From: Bacteroidota bacterium
GTDB lineage: Bacteria; Bacteroidota; Bacteroidia; Palsa-965
Reading direction: 5' to 3'
NCBI GenBank assembly: GCA_020402865.1
Contig: JADBYT010000005.1
Coordinates: 1 to 64,000, forward strand
DNA: 64,000 nt
The position numbers were made by a program, and so were the translations under genes. Numbering within the stretch: position 1 is the first letter of the stretch; every line of letters starts with the position of its first letter. The notes beneath the pieces are model-generated. The model was not told where the DNA came from. It ran no database searches and saw nothing but the letters and a program-made list of their open reading frames with translations. Positions 34,373-54,476 of this stretch are shown one piece after another.

Positions 34373-35689
34373 TCATCTCCTCATTCCCACTACACTTTCT
34401 TTACGCACCAGCGAACGTCGTATGTGCAGTGTTTTTGCCTCCATTGGAGTAAGCAAGCTGCTGCCGCTGCGGGTTGCATGCATTATGATGAGCTGATAAA
34501 ACAAAATGCCGTAATTGGTTTCGCCAAAAATGCCAAATTCGGTAAATGAATTGATGAGCAGCGGAATCATCATCCCGTAATACATCAACTTTGTTTCTGT
34601 GTTTTCTGCGCGATTGAAACCGCGTATAGTAAATACCATTTGAAACAACACAATTGCAAAACCCACAAAGCCAAGATTCATGAGCACCTGAATAAAGGTA
34701 TTGTGTGTCATTTGTCCGGCGTAGGTGTGTACGCCTTGAAAATAATCTTTGTACGCAATGCGCATAAACCCAAAGCCAAAGAGCGGTTCTTTGGGTAAAC
34801 CTTCAGTGAGCAGAGCTTCCCAGAAAGGCAAACGCCCCGTCATGCTCATTACTTCATCAAGTCCGCCGCCACCTTCCTTAATCATGATTTTTTCAACGGC
34901 CACAGGCACAGCCAGCAAAGCGCCGATATACATTGCAGCTTTAAGTTTACGATTATCGGAGCGTTTGATGTGAAAGAAGAAAATGAGCAGAAGACCAATG
35001 GTTGACGAACGGGAGCCAGTCATTACCAACGCATACACCAGCACCAGTACTTTAGTGATGGTCCATACTTTATTTGATTTATTGTAAAGATCAAACAACA
35101 AACACGAAACGCCCAATGCACAAAGCATTCCAAGTTCATTGGGGTTCATGAAATACCCCCCCAGTCTGGCTTCTTCGCCACCATGTGTCATGCGGTAAAA
35201 CTGATCAGGAGCAATGAACATGCCGGACACAAAAATCAGAATCATTAAAAAAATGGCATTTCCTGTAACCGAATAAAATCTGATGTGATTTCCCGGAAAA
35301 TAGGTATCGAGTAAAATGAAACACTGGATAAAGAAAAAAGCAAACACAAGACTTTGCGCATCCATTACCCATTGTAAAGCACTGTAACCGGGGTTGGTTG
35401 ACCATAACAATGAAACGAGACCAAGCAACAGATAGGCAACATACAAAAGGATGGCACCTTTATTCTTCCATCCAAAAGATGCAACAGCACCACGTTTCAC
35501 AATGCTCCACTGCACGGCAAATACAGACACCACCATGAGCATACGGCTGGCTACTTTCAGTACGCGTGTTATGGCCACATTTTCGCTCCACGTAAAGAAG
35601 CCGCCTATCATGATAAACAGAATAAGCAGGAGCAGCCATTCGGTGCGACGCAGAAAAAGGCGGTGTGCAAATGTCAGATTGCCTTCCAT
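34373..35689 (-). CDS. O-antigen ligase/polymerase (Wzy/WaaL-like)
   Basis: A 438-aa protein with about ten to twelve membrane helices and a large periplasmic loop before the C-terminal helices, as in Wzy and WaaL. Family hallmarks include MTGSRSSTIGLLLIFFFHIK and GFGFMRIAYKDYF with a following TH (QMTHNTFIQVLMNLGFVG). In this locus it most likely polymerises lipid-linked repeat units (Wzy role). It is the last gene of the EPS run and overlaps the preceding glycosyltransferase gene by 16 bases. Confidence 0.88.
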   Translation of the reverse strand: MEGNLTFAHRLFLRRTEWLLLLILFIMIGGFFTWSENVAITRVLKVASRMLMVVSVFAVQWSIVKRGAVASFGWKNKGAILLYVAYLLLGLVSLLWSTNPGYSALQWVMDAQSLVFAFFFIQCFILLDTYFPGNHIRFYSVTGNAIFLMILIFVSGMFIAPDQFYRMTHGGEEARLGGYFMNPNELGMLCALGVSCLLFDLYNKSNKVWTITKVLVLVYALVMTGSRSSTIGLLLIFFFHIKRSDNRKLKAAMYIGALLAVPVAVEKIMIKEGGGGLDEVMSMTGRLPFWEALLTEGLPKEPLFGFGFMRIAYKDYFQGVHTYAGQMTHNTFIQVLMNLGFVGFAIVLFQMVFTIRGFNRAENTETKLMYYGMMIPLLINSFTEFGIFGETNYGILFYQLIIMHATRSGSSLLTPMEAKTLHIRRSLVRKESVVGMRR

Positions 35690-36798
35690 GCTTTTAGATA
35701 GAGTTGCTGAAATTCGGGGATGATACGCTCCCAGCTAAATGCCTGTCTGATCATTTGACGTGCGCCATAGCGAAGTGCGGGCATTTTCCCGTTTTGTACT
35801 TCGCCATAAATTTTACAGAGCGCCTGTTCAACTTCGGATGCCGAAGTGCTGTGAATGACTTCGCCTGCGTGATAATTCTGTACGGCCTCTGCCAGGTTGG
35901 TTGCTTCGCTAATGAGGCAGGGCACACCCAGCGAAGCCGCTTCGAGCACCGATGCAGGTAAACCTTCGTTGCGTGAGGGATGGGCAAAAACAGAAATATA
36001 TTTGAGCAAGGCTGTTTTATCATTGCCAAATCGGCTTCCCCAAAGTTTTACTTTATGCTGAATGCCGTGAGAAACAGTCATTTCGCGCAGCCGTTCCAGT
36101 TCAGCACCATCTCCAATAATCCAAAGTTGTGTGCGGTTGTTGTTTTTGGCAAACTCCGCAAACCCGTCAATGAGGGCATCAAGCCCCTTTGTATATACAT
36201 CAATACGCCCGCAAAAGCCTACGATAAAATCAGCATGTTGTTCGTACCGGGGGGCGCATTCGTCAGCGGCTTCAAAGCCATAGGGAAGTAATGCGGCTTC
36301 CTTACCGGGCATCACTTCGTGCAGGCCGTGTATTTCGCTTTGACCGATGCAATGAACTACGGAAGCGGCTTCGAGGAGTTTACGTTCAAACAATATGGTA
36401 TAAATTTTTTTGCGCAAACTACTTTTGCGTCGGGCAATTGTATTGTAGCTGCCGTGCGGAGTAAATACAAAACGAATATTGTTTTTCTTCATCCACAATG
36501 CAGCCGAATAAAACAGGGGAATAAAGCCACCATGAATATGAAAAACAGCCTTGCCCTTTTTTTGGGCAATTGCCTCGCTTAGCTTTCGGCTCATTGCAAA
36601 CGGATTGCGTGACGCTAAAAACAAGCGTGTGCTGAAATTACGTGGCGGATAATCATGTTCGGGATTCTGTGTAATACCCCAAACCTGCACATTGTGCCCT
36701 TGGGTAGTTTGTTTCGAAGCTAGTTCAAAAACTACTTTATTCACGCCGTTCATCCTTTCGGGATTGGCTTTACCAAGAATCAGATGAATGATTTCCAT
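35674..36798 (-). CDS. GT4-family glycosyltransferase
   Basis: A 374-aa GT-B enzyme: N-terminal acceptor domain (GKANPERMNGVNKVVFELAS) and C-terminal donor domain with GFCGRIDVYTKGLDALIDGF and the retaining-enzyme motif NEGLPASVLEAASLGVP (E-x7-E). It transfers a sugar from a nucleotide donor to the growing lipid-linked repeat unit on the cytoplasmic face. It overlaps its neighbours on both sides (16 and 19 bases), so translation is coupled. Sugar specificity unknown. Confidence 0.93.
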   Translation of the reverse strand: MEIIHLILGKANPERMNGVNKVVFELASKQTTQGHNVQVWGITQNPEHDYPPRNFSTRLFLASRNPFAMSRKLSEAIAQKKGKAVFHIHGGFIPLFYSAALWMKKNNIRFVFTPHGSYNTIARRKSSLRKKIYTILFERKLLEAASVVHCIGQSEIHGLHEVMPGKEAALLPYGFEAADECAPRYEQHADFIVGFCGRIDVYTKGLDALIDGFAEFAKNNNRTQLWIIGDGAELERLREMTVSHGIQHKVKLWGSRFGNDKTALLKYISVFAHPSRNEGLPASVLEAASLGVPCLISEATNLAEAVQNYHAGEVIHSTSASEVEQALCKIYGEVQNGKMPALRYGARQMIRQAFSWERIIPEFQQLYLKAWKAI

Positions 36799-38009
36799 GT
36801 AAGATGATGTTTATGGTGAAGAATAATGAGCCAGTAGCAAAGAGGGAAAAACTGTGCGGCGAAAAGTCCGGCCACAATTGCCAATGCATCAGCCCCGGGG
36901 ATAAGCAATGCAAAAGAAGCAGCCACAACCGATAGGATTGCGCCTGAGAAATAAAGTTGATTGAGATGTAGGCTGCGTAAAGCAGTGCGCACACTATAGC
37001 CCAAAGTAACAAGCAGATAAACTGCAGCGAGTGCCGGAATGATACTGCTGCTATCGGGCACATCGTTACCACCAATAAATTGCATCAGCGGGCGCGCAAA
37101 CAGGCAAAGCACAAGGGCAAACGGCACATACAAAAGCAAAAGTGTGAATGTCATTTTACGTAGTCCGGCTGCCAGTTGTGCGCTGTGTGCGGCAAGGGCA
37201 GCAGCTTTGGGGAGCGCATACGTTTCGGCAGCCTGCAAAATGAGTGTAAACGTGCTAAACAACTGCTGCCCCAGGCGCAACACGCCCAAAGCTGCTGCAC
37301 CCGTTCGTGCAGAAAGCGCCAGCATGAGCAGATTGCCCGAACACCATTGCAGTAAAGCCGTGTAAAATAACCAGCGTCCCTGACGAAAATGTATGCGCAG
37401 GGTTAGATGCCACATACTACGCTGCACAACCGGCCTGCCAAACAACCACATGCTGGCCGCAAGCATGGGGCACAATGCCGCAGCCGATGTGAACAATGCG
37501 TCCTCCACAGTAAGCGTATGGCGCTGCATAAAAAGTAAAGCCAGCAACAACAGCGACACACACACATCAAGCAGAAGCACTGTTTTGTAGTTGCTTCGGG
37601 CAAGCAGTACACGCCGCACACCGTCGGCAGTAAGCTGTGCGGCTGCATACACGCATATAGCCGCCGAAGCAGGAAACAACTGCACAAAGGCAAACGGCAA
37701 TTGTCTGAACAGCAGAACCAGCAAAACAAGTAAAGTCGTAAGCATCACCAGCCCCAGCAACACAGCCTGTGTATATGCCTTACGGCGATGCACCGAAATC
37801 CTGCTGAAGTTTACCTGAAACACACCCGAAATAAATGCCTGCTGCACGGCCTGCAACAAAAAAAGCAAAAGTACCACAGCCGAAAAACGACCATAACCAT
37901 CCACCCCGCTTGTACGCGCAATGAACAACGACGAAAGCAAGGCAGTACCGCTCACCACAGCCTGATCGGCTACCACAGCCAAACGGTTTATGTACCTTAA
38001 GATATTCAT
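36780..38009 (-). CDS. Wzx-like polysaccharide flippase
   Basis: A 409-aa integral membrane protein with about twelve helices in the MATE/MOP arrangement (AVVSGTALLSSLFIARTSGV near the start, SGVFQVNFSR). It should flip lipid-linked repeat units to the periplasm. It overlaps the Wzc-like gene by 4 bases (ATGA) and the downstream glycosyltransferase by 19. The sequence is divergent; topology and place in the locus support the call. Confidence 0.85.
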   Translation of the reverse strand: MNILRYINRLAVVADQAVVSGTALLSSLFIARTSGVDGYGRFSAVVLLLFLLQAVQQAFISGVFQVNFSRISVHRRKAYTQAVLLGLVMLTTLLVLLVLLFRQLPFAFVQLFPASAAICVYAAAQLTADGVRRVLLARSNYKTVLLLDVCVSLLLLALLFMQRHTLTVEDALFTSAAALCPMLAASMWLFGRPVVQRSMWHLTLRIHFRQGRWLFYTALLQWCSGNLLMLALSARTGAAALGVLRLGQQLFSTFTLILQAAETYALPKAAALAAHSAQLAAGLRKMTFTLLLLYVPFALVLCLFARPLMQFIGGNDVPDSSSIIPALAAVYLLVTLGYSVRTALRSLHLNQLYFSGAILSVVAASFALLIPGADALAIVAGLFAAQFFPLCYWLIILHHKHHLTWKSFI

Positions 38010-40201
38010 GCCTGAGCTTTTTTAATCCGCTTCATCCATGTATGCACAAAGTCTGATGCTTCGCAAACAAACAGCCATGCACTGCGCAAAATGCTGGGTG
38101 TATAATCCGCTCGGTTGAGCACATAAGCGGGGTCGGGCAATCGGAACTCGCTGCACAGCATGTCGTTTTGCACAAGCTGTTTCCTGCGCGTATTGCGCGA
38201 ATCGGTAACGAGAAAATTATGGTCGGCAGCAGCCATAATGCGCAGGGCATCGGGGTTTTTTCGCATACAACCATTGTTCCAGATAATCAGCGTATGTGTT
38301 TGCATCCACTGCTGCATCATTTCACGCAGTGTGCCTGCATTGCGTATTGCCAGCAATTGTTCGCCCTGCATACGGGTAATGCTGCTTGCTGCTGCTGAAT
38401 CAGAAAGTGTATTATCAGCATCGGCAAGCAAGACCGAATAGCCGGCATCTGTTGCCGCAGCGGCAAGCTGCATGCACATAAACTGGCGGCCATCTTTATC
38501 CGTATCTGACGAAAACACAAGCACTTTGCCTGGGTTTAGCTTGTTTCTCAACTCAAGTTCAATGAGCCAGCGACGAAAGAAAAGTTGTTTTTCGGCCTGG
38601 TTTTTGAAAACGGGTACACTTGCATCAAGCGGCAATGATGTATTTCGCTGAAGCGTATCGGCATCATTAACACGGGCTTTTTGAAAATGCACGATATAAA
38701 TAAGCGTAACAGAAGCCAGCATGCCAAGAAAGCCCGCCAGAATGCGAATCAACCCGGCATTGGGCGAAACCGGCTTCCGGGCTGCTTCTGCTGCAGTAAT
38801 AATTCGGTGAAACGAAATGCGCGCTGCCTGTGCAATTTCGGCTTCAGTACGCTTTTCATGCAGGAAGCGGTAAAGTTGTTCGTTTAAACTGAAATCGCGC
38901 TCAAGATCATTCATACGCCTTTCGCGCGAGGGTAGTCCAACAAATACCGCTTCCGCATCACGAATGCCCTGCTCAAGCTCAAAGAGTTTAATGCGCAACG
39001 CTGTTTTCGAATTTGAAATGCTTTCGCGGAGATAAAGAATCAGATCCTGAAGCTTGGCGTCGATCAGTTTTACTTTCTCATGTTCGGCCGTGTAGCGGGT
39101 CAGCAACTCCTTTTTCTCGGCTTGAAGTGCTTTTATTTTAAGCACAATTTCGGTAGAAAGCAGATCCGTAAACTGCTCAAAATTTGGCGCCAGTTCAAGA
39201 AAGCGATCTACCCCTTTTTGAATCGCCGCATGTAAGCTGTCAACCGCCGAAAGGCTCATCTGCACACTGATGTACTGTTTTTTCAGGTCGGATATTTTAC
39301 GCAAATCGGTTTCGGTTTCCTGCTTGATATTTATTATGCGGTGAGTATCACGATACATTTCAATATCATCTTCACTCCTGCTTAGTTTTTTACCATACGA
39401 CTCAAGTTGCTGGTCAAGAAATTTTCGGGTTGTGTCTGCTACCAGAAATTTGGTTTCCACAAAATCATTGAGATAAGCCATTGCCACGGCATTGGCCATA
39501 TCGGCAGCTTTATCAGGCACAGCACTCCGGCAACTGATACGTAATACAGGAACCTCTTTATCAACAGCCATTACATCCAGCTGCCCGCTTATCATTTCCT
39601 TTTGCTTCTTTAAGCTGTTGAATACAAATTCGTAATTATCATTTATTCGTATCTGCTTGTTTGCAGTAATAAATTCGTCGTTTTTCACAATCAGTATTTC
39701 GCCGCCGGCGGTAATAATTTTTTGCCCGAATACCGATTGATGCACTACACCGTCGGGTGAAGTGAGTGTGAGTGTATCGTTACTCACACATAGCTTAAAT
39801 GGTTTATCGAACCAATTTTCTTTGCTGAGATTTACCAGTATGGTAATGGGTGAATTCTTGTACAGTTCTGTTTTATTAATTTTCCCGATGCGTGAAATAC
39901 TTACTTCAAGGTTTAACATGTGCGCTGCCTTTTCCAGCAGTACACCTGATTTTATCAGTTCAACTTCAGCATTTATTTTATTGCTGGTGGCAAACACGTC
40001 AAAATCATTAAACAAATTGGCACCTGACGGGCCATCGTGGTTATCGGCAAGTTTGATGAATGTGGTGCTTTCAAACACAGGAGTGACATAACGCAAATAC
40101 CTGTTTGCAACCAGTACACCAATTGCCATACAAACAATTACGATTGGAATCCCTCTGTAAACGGGACGCAATACGGGAGGCAGAAGTGAGGCAATTTTCA
40201 T
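38006..40201 (-). CDS. Wzc-like chain-length/co-polymerase protein with degenerate kinase domain
   Basis: A 731-aa protein. Membrane helix 1 (PIVIVCMAIGVLVANRYLRY) is followed by a Wzz domain, a long coiled coil (about 250-450, SYGKKLSRSEDDIEMYRDTH), and helix 2 near 490 (LIRILAGFLGMLASVTLIYI). The C-terminal cytoplasmic domain has the shape of a bacterial tyrosine kinase, but the Walker A equivalent near residue 565 is SSDTDKDGRQFM (no GKS/T), Walker A' is LLADAD, and the Walker B Asp is replaced (LIIWNNG). No Tyr cluster ends the protein. It probably still shapes the export complex with the Wza-like protein but should not phosphorylate. Confidence 0.9.
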   Translation of the reverse strand: MKIASLLPPVLRPVYRGIPIVIVCMAIGVLVANRYLRYVTPVFESTTFIKLADNHDGPSGANLFNDFDVFATSNKINAEVELIKSGVLLEKAAHMLNLEVSISRIGKINKTELYKNSPITILVNLSKENWFDKPFKLCVSNDTLTLTSPDGVVHQSVFGQKIITAGGEILIVKNDEFITANKQIRINDNYEFVFNSLKKQKEMISGQLDVMAVDKEVPVLRISCRSAVPDKAADMANAVAMAYLNDFVETKFLVADTTRKFLDQQLESYGKKLSRSEDDIEMYRDTHRIINIKQETETDLRKISDLKKQYISVQMSLSAVDSLHAAIQKGVDRFLELAPNFEQFTDLLSTEIVLKIKALQAEKKELLTRYTAEHEKVKLIDAKLQDLILYLRESISNSKTALRIKLFELEQGIRDAEAVFVGLPSRERRMNDLERDFSLNEQLYRFLHEKRTEAEIAQAARISFHRIITAAEAARKPVSPNAGLIRILAGFLGMLASVTLIYIVHFQKARVNDADTLQRNTSLPLDASVPVFKNQAEKQLFFRRWLIELELRNKLNPGKVLVFSSDTDKDGRQFMCMQLAAAATDAGYSVLLADADNTLSDSAAASSITRMQGEQLLAIRNAGTLREMMQQWMQTHTLIIWNNGCMRKNPDALRIMAAADHNFLVTDSRNTRRKQLVQNDMLCSEFRLPDPAYVLNRADYTPSILRSAWLFVCEASDFVHTWMKRIKKAQA

Positions 40202-40209
40202 GGTGCAGA

Positions 40210-41394
40210 TCAGCGGAAAAAATTAAACACCAGTGCAAGCGCACTAATCACACTGGCTATCGGAATAACAGAGCCTGATTTTTTATCCCACATTTTTCCT
40301 TTGCGCGAAGGCACCACAATAATATCACGGGGATGAAGCTGAATGTTGGTTTCGAGATGCTGGTCGCGGCCGGTAAGATTTACGGTTACCTGCTTTTGCA
40401 ATCCATCTACAATGCGCAACACCTGTATTTGTTTTTTGTCGGCATAAAATTCAAAACCGCCAGACCGGCCAATAAGTTCAATCAGCGTATTATGTTCTTT
40501 TTCGAGCAGATAATTTCCGGGGGTTTTAACTTCACCCAGCATGGTAACTTCTTTGTTTAGCACTTTTACTTCTAAAACCGGATTAACTACCAGCAACGAA
40601 TACTTTTTCACAAGTGTGTCCTTCGCTTCACGCTGTGTTAGCCCACCAATTTTCACACGTCCGATGCGCGGCACAGGAATCATTCCTTCAGCATCCACCA
40701 TCAGCCACTTTCCATATACTTCATTGGAATTGTATATTCCATAAAGAGAGCCCACGCTTAAATCATCGTGATTCCATACGCTGATGGTTACTTTATCATC
40801 TTTACTAATCCGGTATTCATAAAACGGATCATATTTAAAAAAGGCCGTATCGCCCGAAACCAAATCATTTGCAGCCTGCTTTTTCTCAAAGAGATTCTGG
40901 GCAGAACATCCGTTCAGAAAAAAAAGCAGCGGAAAAAACGAAAAAGCAAAAAACAACAACTTCAGATTATTCCAAAATCCACCCTTACGATTATTACCCA
41001 TTTGCTTTTCATGCAATTTAATACGCACCTGCATGATCCGTTCAAGCACATTCGAAATCTTTCCCTGATCGTCCTGACCTTTTATGATGTAGTCAAAGGC
41101 TCCATACTTCAAGGCATCCACAGCTACAGAAATTGATTCCTGCGATGAAATAAAAACCACATAGATGTCTGGATTAATGCGCTTGATTTTCAAAAGCACA
41201 TCCAAACCATCCATATTGTTCATAACATGATCCAGGAAAATAATTTCGGGATGCCCGGTAAGCTGATTAATTGCCTGCTGCCCGTCTTCGAAACAGGTAA
41301 TTTTTGAGTACCCAAGTCTGCGCAGCATTTTCTCATAGATTAACCGGTAAAACGGATCATCATCTACAAGAAAGATTTTTGGATTTTCAAACAT
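40210..41394 (-). CDS. Receiver domain in one frame with a Wza-like polysaccharide export lipoprotein
   Basis: A 394-aa single frame. Residues 1-125 are a complete receiver (REC) domain: acidic pocket D11-D12-D13, phospho-acceptor D55 (IIFLDHVMNNMDG), S83/S84 and K105 (YDYIIKGQ). After a basic stretch comes a hydrophobic segment and lipobox (FFPLLFFLNGC, Cys163), then a polysaccharide export domain (YRISKDDKVTISVWNHDDLS) with GEVKTPGNYLLEKE (SLBB part) and a C-terminal hydrophobic helix (VIPIASVISALALVFNFF). An ATG at 41001 (residue 132, MGNNRKGG) could start a separate lipoprotein with an ordinary signal, but there is no stop or frameshift between the parts. It sits between the hybrid kinase and Wzc-like genes. 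Either a true fusion or two products from one frame. Confidence 0.92.
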   Translation of the reverse strand: MFENPKIFLVDDDPFYRLIYEKMLRRLGYSKITCFEDGQQAINQLTGHPEIIFLDHVMNNMDGLDVLLKIKRINPDIYVVFISSQESISVAVDALKYGAFDYIIKGQDDQGKISNVLERIMQVRIKLHEKQMGNNRKGGFWNNLKLLFFAFSFFPLLFFLNGCSAQNLFEKKQAANDLVSGDTAFFKYDPFYEYRISKDDKVTISVWNHDDLSVGSLYGIYNSNEVYGKWLMVDAEGMIPVPRIGRVKIGGLTQREAKDTLVKKYSLLVVNPVLEVKVLNKEVTMLGEVKTPGNYLLEKEHNTLIELIGRSGGFEFYADKKQIQVLRIVDGLQKQVTVNLTGRDQHLETNIQLHPRDIIVVPSRKGKMWDKKSGSVIPIASVISALALVFNFFR

Positions 41395-41531: not shown

Positions 41532-44378
41532 TTACAAATAAAACTGTCTGATATGCTCAATAACCCCATTCACCCTATCAGTTAAGTCGGCAAATCGTTC
41601 ACTAACTTGAGGAACGGGATTATTGTTTTTCCCTTCGGTTTCAATTTCAGCAAGAAGATTGGTGGATATACCCACATCGTTCAAAGAAGGTTTGATTCGA
41701 TGAGCAATACGACCCATTTTCACAAAATCTCCGGCATCGCAGGCGGCTTTCATTTCTGCCAGTTGAGCGGGAGTTTCCTTTACAAAAATCGTGAGCATTT
41801 TATTCAGAAACACCTTATCGCCAGCCGCAATCTTTAACAGGCGCGAAAGATCCGGTGTATAGTCGTCATTCATTGTATTCTCCCGCAATATAACGGAACC
41901 AATGGCAATCCACTTAAAGACTTTCTGAATGAGTTGCTGCTCTTCAAACGGTTTGGAAAGAAAATCATCCATACCGGCAGCAATACACTTTTCGCGTTCA
42001 CCCGTAAGCGCATTTGCTGTTAAGGCAACTACAGGCAAACCCGTTCCATACAACTGACGAATTATGCCGGTACACTCAACGCCATCCATCACAGGCATCT
42101 GAACATCCATAAGTACAACATCTGCATCCCGTTTTTCTAACGCAAGTACCGCTTCGGCTCCATCGTTGCACACAATTACTTCGGCTCCGTAGCGTTCGAG
42201 AATTGTGGTGGCGAGGAGCTGGTTATAGGAATTGTCTTCAGCAAGCAAAATCGTTTTGCCGCTCAGTTGGCCATCAGGAGTAATATCGGGATGCTGCACA
42301 CTTATATCAGAACTATTTCCGGCAGGCAACAACAAATTAACTTTAAATACCGACCCTAGCCCTTTTGTACTTGCAACCGAAATACTTCCACCCATAAGCT
42401 CAACCAGCTCGCGGGTAATCGCCATGCCCAACCCGGTTCCTCCGTACATACGTGCTGTTGAATCATCTTCCTGACTGAATTTGCCAAACATCTGCGTCAA
42501 AAATTCGTTACTCATACCAATTCCTGTATCGCTTACGGCAAGCTCTATTTCCTGTCCGAGTTTGGCATTCTGAATTACGGTCACCTGAACTGATACTTTG
42601 CCCTGTTCTGTAAACTTTATACTATTTCCGATCAGATTAATGAGTACCTGCGTAATTCTGAAAGGATCGCCAATGAGAACGGGCGTAAGGTTTTCGTCGA
42701 TTTTACATTCAAGCAGAATACCTTTTTCTTCGGCTTTCGAAAAAAGGATGCTGCATACTGTTTTTACAACATCAACTAACGAAAACGTAATACGTTCAAC
42801 AGTTAATTGCCCCGCTTCAATTTTCGAGAAGTCGAGAATGTCGTTAATAATTACAAGCAGGTTGGCACTTGCCGAATTAATGGCATTCACAAACGTGCGT
42901 TGCTTACCGGAAAGCGGCGTATTGAGCAATTGCTCGCCAAAGCCCGAAATCGCATTCATGGGTGTTCGTATTTCATGACTCATGTTTATCATGAACGATT
43001 CTTTGGCTTTAGCCGATTCTTCGGCAAGCTTGCGGGCTGTACGTAGCTGTTCCTCAAGCTCCATCTGATCTGTAATATCCACATGTACGCCAATGCTTCC
43101 GATAACGGTTCCTTTTGAGTCATACATAGGCGCTCCGGAAATCATCCACCACCTGGCCTCGCCGCGTTTGTTACGCACCTGCATTTCATAGGCATCCGAA
43201 ATACCCTGATTCCGTTCTTTCTGCCGGCTATTGAAAGTCTGGCGGAGTTCTTTAGGTAAAAGTAAATCGTATGTTTTCCGGCCCAATAATTCGTCAGTCG
43301 TGTAACCGGAAATATTACAGAACGACTGGTTGGCGTAAACGATTTTTTCTTCAAGATCAACCTCAATGAGTCCGAGGTTCATATTTTCTATAATGCCTCT
43401 GTACTTTTCTTCCTGTTCCTGAAGTTTCTGCTCATAGCGTTTTGCAGCTGTAATATCAGTGTATTTCCAGAGATGCCCCTTGTATTCATTATTCACAAAA
43501 AACGGGATATAATCGCGGTTGAGTACACGGCCATCAGCCATAATCAACTCTTCACCGGTAACAGCTGTTTTCTGTTGGAGCAGGTCATTAATGCGGGCAA
43601 TAAAACCTTCGGGATCCTCGAACAACCCTTTGCTTTGTTCGGCCGATTGTGAACAATCCATACCTCTCAGTTCGGCAGGCGAAAGCGGTATGCTGAAAAT
43701 CTGACAAAAGGTATGATTGATTACCTCAATATGACGCGTTTCACTCTCGAGCAGCACGCCTGAATTGAGGTTGGTAATCATGTGCAAAAGCTTATCTGCA
43801 GCCAGCCGCAACTCTTCTTCTGCATGCTTTTGTTCTGAAATATCAGTATTGACGCCAATTATTCGCAGCGGTTTTCGCTTCTCGTCAACCTCAACGGCAC
43901 AACCACTATCGAGTAACCACTTCCATCCTTCGCGCTTTGAACGCATTCTGAATGCAAGTGTATGTTCGCTTCTTAAACCGGTTGAATATTCTTTATATAC
44001 TCCCAATACCCGGAGCAAATCATCGGGGTGCAGAATGCTAAGCCAGAAATCAACATTATTTTCAAATTCATGGGGAAGATACCCCAATACTGATTTATAG
44101 CGCGGGGAAAATATAATTTCATTTGTTCTGAAATCAACTTCCCACATCCCATCGCCCGACCTTTCGATGGCAAACTTTAGTCTGCTTTCACTTATCTGAA
44201 GTTCATGAGTACGGCTTTGTATTAATGTTTCGAGGGTTTTATTCTGTTCGCTGAGTTTTTCATTCACATAATACAGCTCGCGGCTTTTCATTTCCAGAAT
44301 GCGCTCAGAAGCCTTGCGTGCATTGCGTTCACGCTCAAGCATACGCCTCAGCACAGCAATTTCATCCTCAGCACTCAT
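41532..44378 (-). CDS. Soluble PAS hybrid histidine kinase with receiver and HPt domains
   Basis: A 948-aa protein without membrane helices. An N-terminal coiled coil (1-65) is followed by three PAS/PAC domains (about 66-190, 195-320, 325-445), HisKA with H468 (MINMSHEIRTPMNAISG), an HATPase (NLIGNSIKFT, DTGIGM, GGTGLGM), a receiver with D758 (VVLMDVQMPVMDG) and a C-terminal HPt with H893 (IAHRIKPSLN). All phosphorelay residues are present. It overlaps the H-NOX gene by 11 bases, so H-NOX is the likely input, as with HnoK-type kinases. The HPt can pass phosphate to the receivers of the sigma-54 regulator and of the export protein, both encoded next door. Confidence 0.96.
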   Translation of the reverse strand: MSAEDEIAVLRRMLERERNARKASERILEMKSRELYYVNEKLSEQNKTLETLIQSRTHELQISESRLKFAIERSGDGMWEVDFRTNEIIFSPRYKSVLGYLPHEFENNVDFWLSILHPDDLLRVLGVYKEYSTGLRSEHTLAFRMRSKREGWKWLLDSGCAVEVDEKRKPLRIIGVNTDISEQKHAEEELRLAADKLLHMITNLNSGVLLESETRHIEVINHTFCQIFSIPLSPAELRGMDCSQSAEQSKGLFEDPEGFIARINDLLQQKTAVTGEELIMADGRVLNRDYIPFFVNNEYKGHLWKYTDITAAKRYEQKLQEQEEKYRGIIENMNLGLIEVDLEEKIVYANQSFCNISGYTTDELLGRKTYDLLLPKELRQTFNSRQKERNQGISDAYEMQVRNKRGEARWWMISGAPMYDSKGTVIGSIGVHVDITDQMELEEQLRTARKLAEESAKAKESFMINMSHEIRTPMNAISGFGEQLLNTPLSGKQRTFVNAINSASANLLVIINDILDFSKIEAGQLTVERITFSLVDVVKTVCSILFSKAEEKGILLECKIDENLTPVLIGDPFRITQVLINLIGNSIKFTEQGKVSVQVTVIQNAKLGQEIELAVSDTGIGMSNEFLTQMFGKFSQEDDSTARMYGGTGLGMAITRELVELMGGSISVASTKGLGSVFKVNLLLPAGNSSDISVQHPDITPDGQLSGKTILLAEDNSYNQLLATTILERYGAEVIVCNDGAEAVLALEKRDADVVLMDVQMPVMDGVECTGIIRQLYGTGLPVVALTANALTGEREKCIAAGMDDFLSKPFEEQQLIQKVFKWIAIGSVILRENTMNDDYTPDLSRLLKIAAGDKVFLNKMLTIFVKETPAQLAEMKAACDAGDFVKMGRIAHRIKPSLNDVGISTNLLAEIETEGKNNNPVPQVSERFADLTDRVNGVIEHIRQFYL

Positions 44379-44904
44379 TGCAACTGATTAAAAACTCCGT
44401 TGTGCCATCGGGCAATTCCTTTCGTACAAGAATCAGGCTGGTCTGGTAATAATCACCGCAACCTAAAATAAGTCCTTCGGCCACATCCGCCATTCCACGA
44501 TGCGACTGATATGTAAGTTTTATTTGTTGCTCCGAAATACGCTGAGGCTGAAGCGCAGGTGGTCTGGACTCAGGGTATAATTTCTTTACTTCCACATGTA
44601 TGTGCGTCTCAATCTTCTCAAGAAAGCTGAGCGGATCGGTAATGCCCACTATCATTTCAGGATATTGCGCGGCCAGGCGGCCAAATAAATAACGCCCGTA
44701 CACTTTCAGTAACTCCTCAACAGGTATTCCGGTATGCTTGCTCAGGTTAACCACAAGGTTAACCATTTGTCCGTGCGGATATGACCCAACTGAGGTATAG
44801 CTATCAGACTCAATATTTGGTTGTGAAACAATTATATCAACGGTTTTGATACCAAACCGCTTTTCAACCATTTCAAGGAATTCAGTAAAGATTAAGCCTT
44901 TCAT
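44368..44904 (-). CDS. H-NOX (haem nitric oxide/oxygen binding) sensor protein
   Basis: A 178-aa protein, the normal size for a stand-alone bacterial H-NOX. The proximal haem ligand is H103 in HVEVKKLYPESRPP, with P116 13 residues later as in characterised H-NOX proteins, and the haem-propionate motif Y-x-S-x-R is Y132-S134-R136 (TYQSHRGM). The position equivalent to the distal Tyr that supports O2 binding in the Thermoanaerobacter protein is Val141, so NO rather than O2 is the expected ligand. Genes overlap on both sides: 4 bases with the sigma-54 regulator and 11 with the kinase. It probably inhibits or switches the kinase when NO is bound, as in Shewanella, Vibrio and Legionella systems. 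Confidence 0.93.
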   Translation of the reverse strand: MKGLIFTEFLEMVEKRFGIKTVDIIVSQPNIESDSYTSVGSYPHGQMVNLVVNLSKHTGIPVEELLKVYGRYLFGRLAAQYPEMIVGITDPLSFLEKIETHIHVEVKKLYPESRPPALQPQRISEQQIKLTYQSHRGMADVAEGLILGCGDYYQTSLILVRKELPDGTTEFLISCNEC

Positions 44905-46259
44905 TCGCTCTCGTTTTTTACCTCGCCGTCTTTTATCATTTTGTAAATGGTCGATTTTCCGACATTTAGTTTTTCAGCCACTTTCACAATGTTGTGGTTG
45001 TATCTGCGCAGGTAGGTTTCAATTATTTCGATTGTATATTCTTTCAATGTACGTTCACTGCCCGATAAAACGGATGTGCGTGTGTTGGGTGTAAAAGAAA
45101 TTTCGCTGCTTTTTATTTCGGGCGGATCGGCCAATACAGCGGCAAGTTCAATAATTGATTTGAGTTCGCGCACATTACCGGGAAAGTGATACTGCATGAG
45201 CTTGTTTGCTGCATCGGTTGACAATTTAAGTGGCTGAAGGGCATTCGCTTTACAAAACTCATCGAGAAACGAGCGTGCAAGCAGCAGAATATCATTGCCC
45301 CGCTCACGCAGTGGAGGCAGATGAACCGGAAATCCAATAATTCGGTAATACAAATCCTCTCTGAAACGACCAGCTTTTACTTCCTCTGCAAGGTCTTTAT
45401 GCGTAGCCACAACCAAACGTACATCGAGTGAAACACGTTCATTGCCACCTACGCGGATAAGTTCACGTTCCTGCAATACACGCAGCAGCTTGCTTTGCAT
45501 GGATAAATCCATTTCAGCTATTTCGTCGAGAAAGAGTGTGCCTTTTTCGGCTTCTTCAAAACGCCCGTGCCTGCGTGAAACGGCGCCGGTAAAAGCACCT
45601 TTCTCATGTCCGAACAATTCACTTTCGAGCAACTCCTTTGGGATGGCGGCCATGTTTACAGCCACAAACGGCCTGTTACGGCGGTCGCTGTTAAAGTGAA
45701 TTGCTTTTGCCACCAGCTCTTTGCCTGTGCCCGTTTCGCCGGTAATGGTTACGTTTATGGATGTGCGTATCGCCTTTTCAAGCAAAGCAAATACCTTGCG
45801 CAGCGCGGCACTGTCGCCTTTAATACTATTCGAAAATGAATACTTTTTGCCAAGCTCCTCTTCAAGATACTCCACTTTCCGCTGAAGTGCATGTGTTTCT
45901 CTCGCGGCATTCACTGTTGACCAGAGCAGATCTTTTGTATTCTCGTCTTTCAGCAAATAATCATAAGCTCCTTCTTTTAGCAAACTCACTGCAACAGACA
46001 CATCCTCCTGTGCACTGATAATTACAACTGGAATACCAGGATAACGCTCCCGTATTTTACGAAATAGTTCCTGCCCGGTCATATCAGGCAAGCCATAGTC
46101 TATTGTAATCAAATCAGGAGAAGCTGATAAGGCCTTTAAACAGTCGTGCCCGTTTGTGAACAGCGTAACCGAATTATCCGGATTAAGACTAAGATGATAG
46201 TCAAGAATTTCCCCATACCAGGGATCATCTTCCACAATAAAAATTCTGAATGTGCTCAT
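44901..46259 (-). CDS. Sigma-54-dependent response regulator (NtrC family)
   Basis: A 452-aa protein from the ATG at 46259 (MSTFRIFIVEDDPWYGEILD); an upstream ATG at 46277 is possible. A receiver with phospho-Asp D54 (LITIDYGLPDMTGQE) and K in YDYLLKD is followed by an AAA+ domain with Walker A GETGTGKE, the sigma-54 contact GAFTGA, and Walker B GTLFLDEIAEMD. The C-terminus is a Fis-type HTH (NIVKVAEKLNVGKSTIYKMI). It activates RNA polymerase holding RpoN. It is the first gene of the regulator/H-NOX/kinase set and ends 4 bases into H-NOX. Targets are inferred to be the EPS genes around it. Confidence 0.96.
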   Translation of the reverse strand: MSTFRIFIVEDDPWYGEILDYHLSLNPDNSVTLFTNGHDCLKALSASPDLITIDYGLPDMTGQELFRKIRERYPGIPVVIISAQEDVSVAVSLLKEGAYDYLLKDENTKDLLWSTVNAARETHALQRKVEYLEEELGKKYSFSNSIKGDSAALRKVFALLEKAIRTSINVTITGETGTGKELVAKAIHFNSDRRNRPFVAVNMAAIPKELLESELFGHEKGAFTGAVSRRHGRFEEAEKGTLFLDEIAEMDLSMQSKLLRVLQERELIRVGGNERVSLDVRLVVATHKDLAEEVKAGRFREDLYYRIIGFPVHLPPLRERGNDILLLARSFLDEFCKANALQPLKLSTDAANKLMQYHFPGNVRELKSIIELAAVLADPPEIKSSEISFTPNTRTSVLSGSERTLKEYTIEIIETYLRRYNHNIVKVAEKLNVGKSTIYKMIKDGEVKNESE

Positions 46260-46389
46260 AACGTGCAGGGAAGTCACAGACGAAACTTTCTTTCGTGTTT
46301 ACATGATGGATGAAATGATGAGTTACATGATCTGTTTACTTATTTTACTGAAATACAGATTGGATTATATTATCCTGAATTTAAATGTA

Positions 46390-46467: not shown

Positions 46468-47547
46468 CTACTTATAACTTCTTTCGTTTTCTCTTACCAT
46501 GTTTTTCCATTTTTCGAACCGGGCGATGGCTTTTACAAACCTTGTAAAGAGCAGTACCATAGTAAGCTGCACAAGCAGAATATATGTCGTATCTAATTTA
46601 TCTATGGTAAAAAGTGAAAACAGGAGAATACCTATCTGCAACACAAAAATGTGTTTCACAGCCGAGGGGTGATTGTTTCCTGCCAGCAGCAACCAGTGAT
46701 GCAGATGACTGCGATCGGCCATAAAAGGCGAACGTCCTGACCCGATCCGATAAGCAAACACACGTAAAGCATCGGCCACGGGAAGAATAAGTATAGCCGA
46801 AACTAATGCAGCATACGGATGTGCAGTAGTGTTTGCCCCCTGTTCAAGAATAGTCATACCCGACGCCGCCAGCAAAAATCCCAGCATTTGCGAACCGCTG
46901 TCGCCCATAAAAACCGAGGCTGGTGTAAAATTGTATTTTAGAAACAGAACCAGTGCTGCAATAAAAGGCAACAGCAGCAACAGCATTGATGTTGATCCGC
47001 ATAATAAAAAAAGAATACTGAATACAGTAAGCCCTGTTAAAGCCAGCACACCCGAAAGTCCGTCGATTCCATCGATAAGATTAAACGCATTGGTGGCTCC
47101 GGCATAAATAACCGTACTTAACAGAATCTGGGCCGGCCATGCAAGTTCATACACGCCAAACACACCGTGCAACGATTGCAGCCTGAGCCCTGAGAGCGAA
47201 AGCAAGGCACCACAGCCCAACTGCACCAGCAAACGCATCAACGGCCTGAGGTTTCGCTGATCGTCCCATGCGCCTATGCCGCAAAGTACAAGCAATGCAA
47301 GTGTTTCAAACAGGTGCGAAGCCAGAAAAGACCGGCCCGTTTCAAACATAACCAGAGCTCCAAACACAGAAAGAGCAATAACTACACCGCCGGCTGCCGG
47401 CACCGGCTTAATATGTTTCTTTCGGTTGTCAGGCTTATCAACCCAGCCTTTATGCAAATAGACACGAATGAAGGCCGGAAAAAGCAAGGTGGCCAGCAGA
47501 AATGAAACTCCTGCCATGAGTAATGCCTGAGTGAGATGTGTGTGCAT
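46468..47547 (-). CDS. WecA/MraY-family undecaprenyl-phosphate sugar-1-phosphate transferase
   Basis: A 359-aa polytopic membrane protein with about ten to eleven helices. It has KKHIKPVPAAGGVVIALSVF near the N-terminus, the catalytic segment NAFNLIDGIDGLSGVLALTG, and the SHLHHWLL motif in a cytoplasmic loop. The family transfers a HexNAc-1-phosphate from UDP-sugar to undecaprenyl phosphate, which here would prime the EPS repeat unit. Its start lies 2 bases after the DUF1972 glycosyltransferase stop; 208 bases separate its end from the regulator gene. Confidence 0.93.
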   Translation of the reverse strand: MHTHLTQALLMAGVSFLLATLLFPAFIRVYLHKGWVDKPDNRKKHIKPVPAAGGVVIALSVFGALVMFETGRSFLASHLFETLALLVLCGIGAWDDQRNLRPLMRLLVQLGCGALLSLSGLRLQSLHGVFGVYELAWPAQILLSTVIYAGATNAFNLIDGIDGLSGVLALTGLTVFSILFLLCGSTSMLLLLLPFIAALVLFLKYNFTPASVFMGDSGSQMLGFLLAASGMTILEQGANTTAHPYAALVSAILILPVADALRVFAYRIGSGRSPFMADRSHLHHWLLLAGNNHPSAVKHIFVLQIGILLFSLFTIDKLDTTYILLVQLTMVLLFTRFVKAIARFEKWKNMVRENERSYK

Positions 47548-47549
47548 AT

Positions 47550-48758
47550 TCAGCGTTTTTGATAGAATAATTGAGTTGACTGGAGATGTGTTGCGCCGAG
47601 CTCGCCCAATTCATGTATGCTCAGCAATTCTGCATTCGACTGCAGCGAGTTGCGTATTTCCCCTTCAAGTGCACAGCGTATTACATCGCCATACCGCGCA
47701 GCCACTGCATGCCACGTGTAACGTTGCGCTGCAATTTTTTTCATTGCATTTCCCTGTGCAAGAATTTTAAGGTAGGGTGTGTGCATAACGAGATTGGCAA
47801 GCGAAGTTGCATCGGCGAAATACAGGGCTTTTTGCTGTGTGGTGGTGCGGTTGTAGCTCACATCAAAGCAGCACACACAGCAACCTAAAGTCATTGCTTC
47901 TACCAGCGAGGGGTTGGTGCCACCTGCACTGTGGCCGTGCAAGTAGAGCATGCAGTTGGTGCGCATCGCATCAATTAGCCGCTGATCGTAAATCGGGTCG
48001 AGCAGGAAAATGTTGCCATAATCGGCGTATTTTTCCAGAAGGGTTTTCCCGTATTCGCTTTTGCTCCAGTTACCCACCAGCACCAGTTGTCTGTTTGGAA
48101 TACTACTGAAAGCATCAAGCATGAGATGAATATTATTTTCAGGCTCAATGCGGCACACTGAAAATGCATAGGGTTTAGATAAAAACGGGTATCGTTTTAA
48201 ATCGGCATTGGTAAAACTCTGCTGCGTCACATGGTCGCCCCCGTATTCAATAATGCAACTCAAACTCTCGTACCGTTTTGCGGTGTAATCCTGTATGCTT
48301 TCGTTATCGGCAATATTCACATGTGCATAACGCACGGCAAGCATTTCGGCAAACCATAAATACCACGCAGCCATACGCCCCCATTTATCCCGCTTCCACT
48401 CAATCCCGTCAACCGACACAATAATTTTTTTGCGTGTAAACCAGCGCACAAACGGAATCATAAATCCGCCGCTTACACCAAGAATAAGCAATACATCGTT
48501 TTTGAAAAGCGCATGTAATATACTTACTGCGTCGTAAATAATACTTTGAATACCGTTGGCTTTAAATGGCAAATACACAAGCCGGGTATTCCCTTCGTGC
48601 GCTTTACGCTCCTCTTTACGGTAAGCCTGCTTTGAGCAATACACCGTAAACGAATAATCATTGCCCAAATGCGCAGTCAGGCGCGCAGCAAGCGTTTCAA
48701 ATCCGCCGTATCGGGCCGGTATGCCCACAGTTCCTATTATGGCTACTCTGGAATTCAT
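47550..48758 (-). CDS. DUF1972/GT4-type glycosyltransferase
   Basis: A 402-aa GT-B enzyme with the DUF1972 N-terminus (VAIIGTVGIPARYGGFETLA) found on rhamnosyl- and related transferases of EPS loci. The C-terminal donor domain has FSVCRIEPENNIHLMLDAF and HGHSAGGTNPSLVEAMTLGC, the usual variant in this group, where the first Glu of E-x7-E is not present. It likely adds the second sugar after priming. It heads a short unit with the priming transferase and has the best sigma-54 promoter candidate of the window upstream. Confidence 0.92.
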   Translation of the reverse strand: MNSRVAIIGTVGIPARYGGFETLAARLTAHLGNDYSFTVYCSKQAYRKEERKAHEGNTRLVYLPFKANGIQSIIYDAVSILHALFKNDVLLILGVSGGFMIPFVRWFTRKKIIVSVDGIEWKRDKWGRMAAWYLWFAEMLAVRYAHVNIADNESIQDYTAKRYESLSCIIEYGGDHVTQQSFTNADLKRYPFLSKPYAFSVCRIEPENNIHLMLDAFSSIPNRQLVLVGNWSKSEYGKTLLEKYADYGNIFLLDPIYDQRLIDAMRTNCMLYLHGHSAGGTNPSLVEAMTLGCCVCCFDVSYNRTTTQQKALYFADATSLANLVMHTPYLKILAQGNAMKKIAAQRYTWHAVAARYGDVIRCALEGEIRNSLQSNAELLSIHELGELGATHLQSTQLFYQKR

Positions 48759-48782
48759 AGGTTTGAATTTTACTGCTTAATA

Positions 48783-48797
48783 CTTGTACCGTGCCAT
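48783..48797 (-). promoter_or_regulatory. Candidate sigma-54 promoter of the DUF1972 glycosyltransferase gene
   Basis: Minus-strand TATGGCACGGTACAAGTATT: the -24 block TGGCACG is perfect. At the -12 position the G is correctly spaced but is followed by T rather than C. The ATG lies 38 bases downstream of the -24 block. A GAFTGA-type activator is encoded 2.5 kb away. Confidence 0.4.
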
Positions 48798-48849
48798 ACT
48801 CCTATCATCTTGTTAACAAAACAATTACACAAAAAGACAGGAAGTGATT

Positions 48850-48885
48850 TTCCGGAATCCGGAAGCAGGTTTCCATTATCCGGCA
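48850..48885 (-). promoter_or_regulatory. Candidate paired activator sites (UAS)
   Basis: TTCCGGAATCCGGAA (48850-48864) is a perfect 7+1+7 palindrome. TTCCATTATCCGGCA (48871-48885) matches it at 11 of 15 positions. Centres are 21 bases apart, two helical turns, as expected for cooperative dimers. They lie ~60-80 bases upstream of the -24 element. The right copy runs into the 3' end of the next gene. Confidence 0.4.
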
Positions 48886-49952
48886 TGCGCCGTATGTGAG
48901 AAATGAGGATAAGATTCGTTGCAGATATGGCGCACCATATCATGGTACAAATCGTTGCGGAGCCAGAGTTTTTTTATGGCAGCATCAAGCGCGCCGGCAT
49001 TACGCGAGTCGATAAGAAAACCATTTACTCCATGCGTAACCAGTTCGGAAGGGCCGCCTACAGGGGGGGCAATAACCGGACGGCCATAGGCAAATGCTTC
49101 GAGTATGGTCATCCCAAATGTTTCAATCCACTGATCGGGACGTGAAAGATTAACCACCACATGAGCCTGGCTGTAAAACCAATGTGTGTCTGATGTAGCC
49201 GGATGGATTTCCAGATTGGCCGGTGCATTTACCTGCCACTTAAACTTCTCTGCTTCGTTTAAACCGGCATTTAGCACAAGTAAAAAGCGGATTCCCGGAA
49301 AACGCCTGGAAAGCCCGGCATATTCATAAATACCTTTGTATGCTTTGAGTGAAGCCAGCATAAGTACTGTAAACTTCCCTTGCGGACGCGTAAACCTGTG
49401 CTGGGTGGCTTTGTCCCAAAACTCGTCGGGAAGTGTGTTGCGCACCACGCTGGTAGGGGTTTTCGAAAAACGAAAACGACTGGCAGTGTACTGTGATACA
49501 AATACAACCTCACTGGCACAACTCTTAGCCATGAATACAAGGAAACGCTGCAGCCATAGAGGCCGCAGACTTACTTCGTGAATGTGTACAGTTACCTGCA
49601 CACGTTTTAACTTACCGGCCAGCATAGCACCAAAGGGCAGCAATGTATTCACATATACAGAATCATTTCTGTTAAGTGATCGGAGCAGAAAGAAAAATGT
49701 GAAGAGCTGCGACCAGAGGTAACGCATAAATGTAACGGCTTTTGATGGCGACCAGCCGTAAGGAATTCTGGCTACATGAACCTGTAATCCATGAGTAAGA
49801 AAGCCGGTGGGTTTTTCAGTAGAAGTAAGTACAGTTATGCGGTTTCCCATTTTTTGCATATCGCGTAATACTTCGCGCAGCACAAGCGGACTTCCGCTGA
49901 AATCATTGAGCAGATGAACGGCGTAGGTGCGCCCCCAGTGATTGTATTTCAT
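48876..49952 (-). CDS. GT4-family glycosyltransferase
   Basis: A 358-aa GT-B enzyme: HLLNDFSGSPLVLREVLRDM at the acceptor domain, LMLASLKAYKGIYEYAGLSR before the donor domain, and IETFGMTILEAFAYGRPVIA with the E-x7-E motif. It is a cytoplasmic, membrane-associated sugar transferase in repeat-unit assembly. Its start lies 50 bases inside the preceding gene, an unusually long overlap, but the N-terminal sequence is typical for the family and supports it. Confidence 0.92.
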   Translation of the reverse strand: MKYNHWGRTYAVHLLNDFSGSPLVLREVLRDMQKMGNRITVLTSTEKPTGFLTHGLQVHVARIPYGWSPSKAVTFMRYLWSQLFTFFFLLRSLNRNDSVYVNTLLPFGAMLAGKLKRVQVTVHIHEVSLRPLWLQRFLVFMAKSCASEVVFVSQYTASRFRFSKTPTSVVRNTLPDEFWDKATQHRFTRPQGKFTVLMLASLKAYKGIYEYAGLSRRFPGIRFLLVLNAGLNEAEKFKWQVNAPANLEIHPATSDTHWFYSQAHVVVNLSRPDQWIETFGMTILEAFAYGRPVIAPPVGGPSELVTHGVNGFLIDSRNAGALDAAIKKLWLRNDLYHDMVRHICNESYPHFSHTAHAG

Positions 49953-51207
49953 GTGCAGGAGTTTTTGAATTAATTTTTTCTTTATTGATTACAGCCGTGT
50001 AAACATCACGCAGTATTTCGCCGCGCTGCTCCCAGCGAAAGTGTTTTTGATACTGTTCGGCAGCCAGGTGCTGTTCTTTAAGCAGGTGCTGCTTATTGGT
50101 AAAAAGCTTAAACAGTTGTGTTGCAAAAGCATCAACCGCTTGCCTGTAGCTGCATACCGGAACTGCGGTGGTAGCCTGCGGATGCAGAAAAGCTCCCGGC
50201 CCGCAATTGTCCCAGCACACAACCGGCAATGCATAGCTCATGGCTTCGGCCACCACCATGCCCGCACCTTCGTGGCTGGGGAAAAGAAAAACAGATGAAC
50301 TTCGGTAAACAGCTCCCAATTCATGGCGCGGTATCCATGCTATTATTTCTACTTTTTCACGAATTCCTTCGTTTTCGGCAATGCGTTCTATTTCGTTCAG
50401 CATCGGGCCGGTTCCTGCCAGGCGAAGCTTAACTTTTTCCCGATCCTCATCGCCCAGCATCCTGCAAAATGCGGCAAAGCTGCGCACTGTAATATCAAAG
50501 CCTTTGAGCGGAACAAAACGGCCCGCCGAAAAAACAGTGAAGCCTTTGTCGGTTGTTGCTCCGGGCTCTGGCGCCTCGGTTGCTACCGAAGGAAGCAGTG
50601 AATAAGTTGCCGTGCGCGGCAATTTTGCGGCCGATTTTTTGTGCATACAAAACACATGCGATGCACGCCGCCGGGTGATTTTTAAAAACGGATCAAAATT
50701 CCAAAACATCCATTTGAAACCGCGCAGCATATACTCACGCATTTTTTCACGTCGCGAAAACCGGCGCAAAAAAGTGCTGCGAACAGGCGGGTGATGACCA
50801 ACCGGCCCCCAAACCAGCGGGCGGCCAAGTATCCAGAGAAAAGAAGGTGTCCAGTCGTTATGAAAATTGAGGTTGTGTACTACATCAAATTTATTGCGCT
50901 GTGAAAACAAACGAAGCGCAACCGAAATTTGCCAGCAGTAAAAATAGATGAGCGAAAGCAGCGGGCCTTTTTTCCAAAACAACATCCAGCCGGGCCAGTC
51001 AACTGCACGAAACACGATGTTGTCTGTTTGTGCTTTTAGCTCAGGATGTTCGGCTATGTAAGTGTTGATGTGCGGCAAATTATTGCGCCGTGTTACAGCA
51101 ACTACTCGCTGAAATCGAGCAGCCTGCAATACAAACTGCCAACCCATTCCGTCTTCCGATCCTTTGTACGGATTGATTGCATACGCTGTTATAAGTACAG
51201 TTTTCAT
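49903..51207 (-). CDS. GT4-family glycosyltransferase
   Basis: A 434-aa GT-B enzyme. The start (MKTVLITAYAINPYKGSEDG) is typical of a subgroup with GMGWQ glycine-rich acceptor loops. The donor domain shows FSAGRFVPLKGFDITVRSFA and HEGAGMVVAEAMSYALPVVC, with the E-x7-E pattern. The C-terminal ~35 residues are Lys/Ser-rich and encoded by bases shared with the next gene. It overlaps the acyltransferase gene by 4 bases. Confidence 0.93.
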   Translation of the reverse strand: MKTVLITAYAINPYKGSEDGMGWQFVLQAARFQRVVAVTRRNNLPHINTYIAEHPELKAQTDNIVFRAVDWPGWMLFWKKGPLLSLIYFYCWQISVALRLFSQRNKFDVVHNLNFHNDWTPSFLWILGRPLVWGPVGHHPPVRSTFLRRFSRREKMREYMLRGFKWMFWNFDPFLKITRRRASHVFCMHKKSAAKLPRTATYSLLPSVATEAPEPGATTDKGFTVFSAGRFVPLKGFDITVRSFAAFCRMLGDEDREKVKLRLAGTGPMLNEIERIAENEGIREKVEIIAWIPRHELGAVYRSSSVFLFPSHEGAGMVVAEAMSYALPVVCWDNCGPGAFLHPQATTAVPVCSYRQAVDAFATQLFKLFTNKQHLLKEQHLAAEQYQKHFRWEQRGEILRDVYTAVINKEKINSKTPAHEIQSLGAHLRRSSAQ

Positions 51208-51932
51208 ACTGCCGCACGTTGCTGGTTTGTAAATTCAGTTGCTTCATACCGATTGCGCAGCAACCGCGCGGGCACGCCCCCTAAAATGCTGCCCGGCGGA
51301 AAACTGCGGTTAACTACAGCACCCGCGGCAATAACACTACCCTCACCAATACTCACCCCGTCGAGTATGGTTACTTTGCTGCCAATCCAGCAGTTATTGC
51401 CAATACGGATACCGTTTCTTGTTACGCCCTGAAAGCGGATAGCCTGATCAGGGTCTGCTGTAATATGATTTTCGGGATGACAACTGAAATACTGACCAAT
51501 AATGCACTCGTCGCCAATTTCCAAACCACCTGTGCCACCGAGGTAAGCAAATTCGCCCATACCCACACTGTTGCCGATGCGGATAAAACCACAGGGCTGT
51601 TGCGGCGATGTGCAAACTACCAGACGGCTGTATGCTCCAATGCTTACATTGTTGCCAAGCGTAATTCCGCCGCTGCTCATACTGCTCAGTAACACACCAT
51701 CACCAAGCCGGAGAAAACGCCCCCAGCTGATGCGGCGAAGATTGAAAAAAACAACGCCCCGGCCGGCCAGCAGCATACGCGGGTGTTTCATAAAAACAAG
51801 CACACGCATACCACGCAGCAAACAAAACAATTGCTGAAAACAAAACAATAACAGCATACGTGCATCCGCCGCATCCGAAAAAGTAAAATTCGGATTACGC
51901 CTGCGGATGAGTTGTTCAAGCCATTTTTTCAT
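51204..51932 (-). CDS. Hexapeptide-repeat acyltransferase (LbH fold)
   Basis: A 242-aa protein. An N-terminal helical/hydrophobic part precedes a left-handed beta-helix of hexapeptide repeats (ITLGNNVSIGAYSRLVV, IRIGNNCWIGSKVTILDGVS, IGEGSVIAAGAVV) and the end GGVPARLLRNR. A catalytic His is plausible in CHPENHITADP. WcaF/WcaB-like enzymes O-acetylate EPS sugars with acetyl-CoA. It overlaps genes on both sides (17 and 4 bases). Confidence 0.92.
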   Translation of the reverse strand: MKKWLEQLIRRRNPNFTFSDAADARMLLLFCFQQLFCLLRGMRVLVFMKHPRMLLAGRGVVFFNLRRISWGRFLRLGDGVLLSSMSSGGITLGNNVSIGAYSRLVVCTSPQQPCGFIRIGNSVGMGEFAYLGGTGGLEIGDECIIGQYFSCHPENHITADPDQAIRFQGVTRNGIRIGNNCWIGSKVTILDGVSIGEGSVIAAGAVVNRSFPPGSILGGVPARLLRNRYEATEFTNQQRAAV

Positions 51933-54375: not shown

Positions 54376-54390
54376 GCCAACAGAATTACG

Positions 54391-54404: not shown

Positions 54405-54476
54405 ATTGCATCGTGCTGCTATTCTGATACTTACAGAAACTGCATGTTTGCAGCACTACAAATTCGGGACAGGCAT

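Follow-up and report, generated by a model that had tools for sequence, protein, structure and literature searches.

A phospho-receiver domain fused in frame to a polysaccharide export lipoprotein in Bacteroidota, and the possible cleavage of the chain into two products

In the window, the whole stretch of 64,000 nucleotides that was analysed, a single gene encodes a phospho-receiver domain joined to an outer-membrane polysaccharide export (OPX) lipoprotein. This receiver-OPX fusion is genuine and rare, and it belongs to a widespread cassette. The reading that we prefer, at a probability of about one half, is that the chain gives two products. The receiver would lie at the N-terminus inside the cell, signal peptidase II would cut at Cys163, and the products, as in relatives with split genes, would form a membrane switch of export controlled by a kinase/HPt protein and an H-NOX sensor.

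The frame is unbroken from the ATG at 41394 to the stop at 40210, a total of 394 codons on the minus strand, and Pfam recognised three domains in the one protein. Together with three other genomes in which the gene is fused, this bears out the uninterrupted fusion reported in the initial annotation. The features of the gene are as follows.

40210 to 41394, minus strand: fused receiver-OPX gene, 394 aa (open frame; Pfam; fused orthologues at loci L011, L092 and L110)
41068 to 41376, minus strand: receiver domain, residues 7-109 (Pfam PF00072, Response_reg, E 3.2e-22; invariant positions across 67 receivers; model pLDDT mostly 88-97 for residues 11-120)
Within the receiver, minus strand: D12; phospho-acceptor D55, 41230-41232; S83, 41146-41148; K105, 41080-41082
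40915 to 41070, minus strand: junction, about residues 109-160, made up of an extended alpha-5, the former receiver tail and the signal-anchor helix (model helices 109-136 and 141-160)
40999 to 41001, minus strand: internal in-frame ATG, Met132, a possible secondary start 31 residues before Cys163 (sequence)
40906 to 40917, minus strand: lipobox L-N-G-C with Cys163 (sequence; Cys invariant in 30/30 aligned rows)
40561 to 40821, minus strand: Poly_export domain, residues 192-278 (Pfam PF02563, E 2.7e-17; profile match to E. coli Wza 2j58, 5.2e-32)
40312 to 40554, minus strand: SLBB domain, residues 281-361 (Pfam PF22461, SLBB_2, E 3.2e-9)
40216 to 40302, minus strand: C-terminal helix, residues 365-393, possibly an outer-membrane helix (AlphaFold2 helix; found across the family)

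The receiver scored 79 bits against PF00072 (cut-off 30.2) and has the acidic pocket, the phospho-acceptor Asp, a Ser/Thr switch residue and the Lys. In the alignment of cassette receivers, D12, D55, Y102 and K105 are invariant (67/67), and the switch residue S83 is Ser in 66 and Thr in one. Most of these receivers have Gly or Ala at position 84, which means that the switch is not S84. Thus the intact receiver described earlier stands with D55, S83 and K105, but not with S84 as an alternative switch.

The remainder of the chain has the order of an OPX protein, Poly_export followed by SLBB, as shown by Pfam and by profile matches to Wza structures. The Wza_C domain (PF18412) that marks class 1 Wza proteins gave no match at E 0.001, and only a C-terminal helix was found. 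The Cys of LNGC follows the signal helix as expected of a lipoprotein. The invariance of Cys163, which the initial annotation had already picked out as the lipobox residue, was counted in the 30 rows of alignment A2, in which the TAA of split pairs was read as Gln solely for aligning. An AlphaFold2 model was run on the same alignment. The receiver and the OPX body were mostly modelled with a pLDDT above 90, alpha-5 was extended, residues 141-160 formed a separate helix at lower confidence, and the C-terminal helix spanned residues 365-393. The pTM was 0.49, and the receiver and OPX body have no defined placement relative to each other.

When one genome of each species was scanned, 41 related loci came to light, and searches of whole genomes supplied others. 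Of 395 genomes sampled from the class, 22 had the gene at a strict cut-off; among 12 genomes of the window's own order it was found, at the cut-off used, in the window's genome only. Besides the window, the gene is fused in one frame in three other species, at L011 (a Chitinophagaceae MAG), L092 and L110. Identity to L011 is 71% for L092, 69% for L110 and about 49% for the window gene. The other 63 distinct relatives, from Bacteroidota and Balneolota, are split, with a receiver gene and then an adjacent OPX gene; they are what is left of 67 pairs, already freed of duplicates, once the three fused genes and the frameshifted L093 were taken out. The co-polymerase gene usually comes third. Fusion of a receiver to polysaccharide export is therefore rare, four intact fused genes versus 63 split, and nearly all relatives encode the two parts separately, although L011, L092 and L110 do not. 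Two further candidates, G774 and G378, had been taken as fused from the length of their open frames and were rejected since stops lie between the two parts.

A quick tree placed the fused genes among 12 rows whose branching was not resolved. A tree that constrained the window, L011, L092 and L093 together had a higher likelihood than the free tree (dlnL 10.9, AU p 0.80). A single old origin of the fusion is compatible with this test and somewhat favoured by it.

The possibility was considered that an assembly or sequencing artefact had joined two genes. There are poly-T runs at the window junction, and L093, nearly identical to L011, has a 1-nt insertion, an extra T, at the Cys codon. Because the adjoining wzc of L093 is broken too, indel errors are likely in that sequence, and the insertion is itself likely to be one. 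Neither alternative frame at the window junction encodes an ATG-started lipoprotein. On this frame analysis and the three other fused genomes an artefact was rejected, and we regard it as extremely improbable. At L108 (10269-13665), from a near relative of L011, the fused gene and wzc are both frameshifted, probably by sequence errors.

In the fused proteins the receiver tail passes straight into the OPX signal helix, the stop codon of the receiver has gone, and so has the start that OPX genes usually have. The junction tail KGGFWNNLKLLF of the window gene corresponds to tails of stand-alone receivers such as KPGFFSKIASLF, and the fused tail KKWFQFLPSLNFL of L092 is comparable with SWTKLFSYLNIL of the split locus L094. 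The lipobox of L011 is GTGC, weak at -3. Between L092 and L110 the junction is free of stops, with a dN/dS of 0.09 and a dS of 1.42. The junction frame is under purifying selection as protein, a result that bears on coding and not on the fate of the chain.

A neutral accident would also give such a gene: loss of a stop would have joined two co-expressed genes, with no functional consequence since cleavage restores the parent proteins. The ratio of fused to split genes is in keeping with this, as is the gap of only a few nucleotides between receiver and OPX genes in many split relatives. The constraint on the junction argues against it, as does the retention of the fusion over a long divergence if it arose once, and we consider an accident of this kind quite improbable.

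A second way to obtain the OPX protein would be internal initiation at Met132, or at its equivalents, with the full-length chain serving as receiver only or being degraded. In each of the four fused genes an ATG in the same frame lies 31-36 residues upstream of the Cys, and the n-region that would result contains Lys or Arg. The distance is far from that of the split family: across 49 split genes, the initiating Met of the OPX protein is a median of 17 residues ahead of the Cys, and 48 of the 49 fall within 14-25. Moreover, the nearest usable Met codons of the fused genes share no alignment column and are not homologous, and, as no stop follows the receiver, the full-length chain is bound to be translated even if some ribosomes start internally. 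A separate lipoprotein from the ATG at 41001 had been offered as one of two readings of this gene; the codon exists, but its use as a start is weakened by these comparisons and is doubtful. At five Lewinella-type loci (L022, L037, L038, L043 and L046) no ATG precedes the signal peptide in the OPX frame, which is therefore likely to start at GTG or another codon.

The stand-alone receivers of the cassette are single-domain response regulators in all 63 split relatives, a description that fits the fused gene only if its chain is cut. A transmembrane-like helix was found at the C-terminus of eight of them (L012, L036, L053, L054, L055, L056, L059 and L062); a ninth listed by the script is the frameshifted fused gene L093 and was left out. 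The remaining 55 have tails such as NPGFIKRLLSIF or KPSLLKSIFKFI. The mean hydrophobic moment of these 55 tails was 0.455 versus 0.287 (sd 0.019) after shuffling, and none of 2000 shuffles was as high, in a test that counts related sequences as independent. The split receivers are thus predicted to be tethered to the membrane, by a transmembrane helix in eight and by an amphipathic tail in most others. Such tails resemble the membrane-targeting tail of MinD, a likeness that we take only as a lead.

If the chain were never cut, the receiver would be covalently tied to the OPX protein and anchored in the inner membrane, and phosphorylation would directly alter the export channel. A single open chain in four species agrees with this, and covalent coupling would account for the retention of the fusion. 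However, the lipobox Cys is kept in every intact fused gene, the split relatives manage without a covalent link, and a protein anchored to the inner membrane at residue 163, with a single Poly_export-SLBB body and a short linker, would probably fail to reach the outer membrane. An uncut bridge is therefore unlikely.

Cleavage at Cys163 is favoured over the uncut bridge by three indirect arguments: the lipobox is kept, the split receivers appear to be membrane-anchored, and the two membranes are far apart. The initial annotation gave two readings, of which the one with a membrane-anchored receiver and a predicted cut at Cys163 fares better. In the preferred two-product reading, the N-terminal receiver would remain cytoplasmic, the hydrophobic segment of about residues 141-162 would act as an N-in signal anchor, and the OPX part would be exported. 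Cys163 would be lipidated, and signal peptidase II would then cleave just before it. Residues 1-162 would form a receiver ending in a membrane helix and residues 163-394 the mature OPX lipoprotein, matching what the relatives make from two adjacent genes. More tentatively, the gene may encode a two-component signalling polyprotein, from which signal peptidase II frees anchored receiver and OPX lipoprotein in equal numbers, within a phylum-wide control of export by tethered receivers.

The fused gene sits inside an exopolysaccharide cluster, and the genes directly upstream of it encode signalling proteins.

34373 to 38009, minus strand: flippase-like protein (named by position and sequence, with no Pfam match), glycosyltransferase and Wzy-type polymerase
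38006 to 40201, minus strand: polysaccharide co-polymerase (Wzz/GNVR) with a degenerate tyrosine-kinase domain (Pfam; Walker motifs and Tyr tail missing)
41532 to 44378, minus strand: PAS hybrid histidine kinase with receiver and HPt domains (Pfam)
44368 to 44904, minus strand: H-NOX haem gas sensor (Pfam PF07700, 2.9e-39; whole-genome search)
44901 to 46277, minus strand: receiver-AAA+ sigma-54 response regulator (Pfam PF00158, 2.3e-70; HTH_8 DNA-binding match below cut-off)
46468 to 54456, minus strand: GT4-type initiating transferase, three glycosyltransferases, hexapeptide acyltransferase and an 846-aa protein with a thymidylate-kinase-like domain (Pfam; gene content of L109 closely similar)

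The large protein of this cluster (51916-54456, 846 aa) has a counterpart of 820 aa at L109 (9786-12248); it is the window copy in which the thymidylate-kinase-like domain was detected. By hand count, about 30 of the 41 loci have a hybrid kinase encoded in the same direction no more than 8 kb upstream and about 24 a sigma-54 regulator, and the co-polymerase follows the OPX gene in almost all. A search of 20 genomes detected H-NOX in 7, and it lies within the cassette at several Bacteroidota loci, including L023, L034, L035, L036, L039 and L047. The genome of L011 has a closely similar set of exopolysaccharide genes, with the sigma-54/H-NOX/kinase block at the opposite end of the cluster.

The HNOB domain of the window H-NOX scored 135 bits (cut-off 25.5), and its haem His, Pro and YxSxR motifs were read by eye in the translation only. 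The HPt domain of the adjoining kinase is marginal, 24.3 bits against a cut-off of 24.6, with the His motif AHRIK present, and the suggestion that this protein supplies the phosphate is plausible. A recent origin of the receiver by duplication from the sigma-54 regulator, also suggested earlier, is not upheld: the cassette receivers group together, apart from the sigma-54 receivers, in a tree from a short alignment with weak internal support. A common ancestor of the two could only be ancient.

The Walker A, A' and B motifs and the Tyr-rich tail were sought in the window co-polymerase and none was found; it does not qualify as a BY-kinase. When the window sequence and 41 related ones were searched by regular expression, GK[ST] was found in 7/42, A' in 1/42, and B and the Tyr tail in 0/42.

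From the gene order, we infer that the hybrid kinase/HPt, under the H-NOX gas sensor, would phosphorylate the receiver, and that the receiver at the membrane would switch the polysaccharide machine post-translationally, most likely through the pseudokinase co-polymerase. The sigma-54 regulator would set transcription of the machine. The presence of H-NOX and the HnoX-HahK case of Vibrio fischeri point to NO as the signal, and by analogy with HnoX-HahK-syp control of the exopolysaccharide by NO is likely. A monotopic transferase of the EpsZ type was rejected as a target of the receiver, the window cluster having a GT4-type enzyme instead.

If this were true, the work of signal peptidase II would extend to the maturation of a signalling protein, and a cassette conserved in Bacteroidota would tie gas sensing to polysaccharide export through a membrane-held receiver beside a kinase-less co-polymerase. 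It would also suggest, in a form open to direct test, how co-polymerases without a kinase are regulated. No description of the widespread receiver-OPX cassette was found in the literature searched. In the open-access papers searched there was no precedent for membrane-anchored response regulators, internal lipoboxes or proteins combining a receiver with Poly_export, and the main text of an OPX survey (PMC9603273) mentions neither response regulators nor receivers.

Among known systems, the window OPX part resembles, in size, Poly_export-SLBB body and C-terminal helix, a kind of short OPX protein that has been described chiefly in Bacteroidetes (PMC9601211), but no receiver is described for that kind. 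E. coli Wza (PDB 2j58), the top match to a solved structure by sequence profile, is likewise a lipoprotein with Poly_export and SLBB; it differs in carrying Wza_C, which the window OPX part lacks at E 0.001, and in having no receiver. The BY pseudokinase EcpK/HfsB also allows a co-polymerase to function without a catalytic tyrosine kinase (PMC12004946). EcpK is a pseudokinase that serves a co-polymerase, whereas the degenerate domain in the window is on the co-polymerase chain itself.

In Myxococcus xanthus the single-domain response regulator EpsW directly switches polysaccharide synthesis (PMC12802240), and the EpsW-EpsZ pair is similar in that a regulator of this type controls a Wzx/Wzy-type exopolysaccharide after translation. 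However, EpsW stands alone as a protein and has a monotopic phosphoglycosyl transferase as its target, while the window receiver is predicted to be membrane-tethered, is fused or co-encoded with the OPX protein, and accompanies an initiating enzyme of the GT4 type. The HnoX-HahK-SypF-SypG/SypE system of Vibrio fischeri (PMC12369376) is alike in its components: H-NOX, a hybrid kinase, HPt, a transcriptional regulator of polysaccharide genes and a second response regulator below transcription. There SypE acts below transcription through SypA, whereas the second receiver of the window is a single domain joined to the OPX protein.
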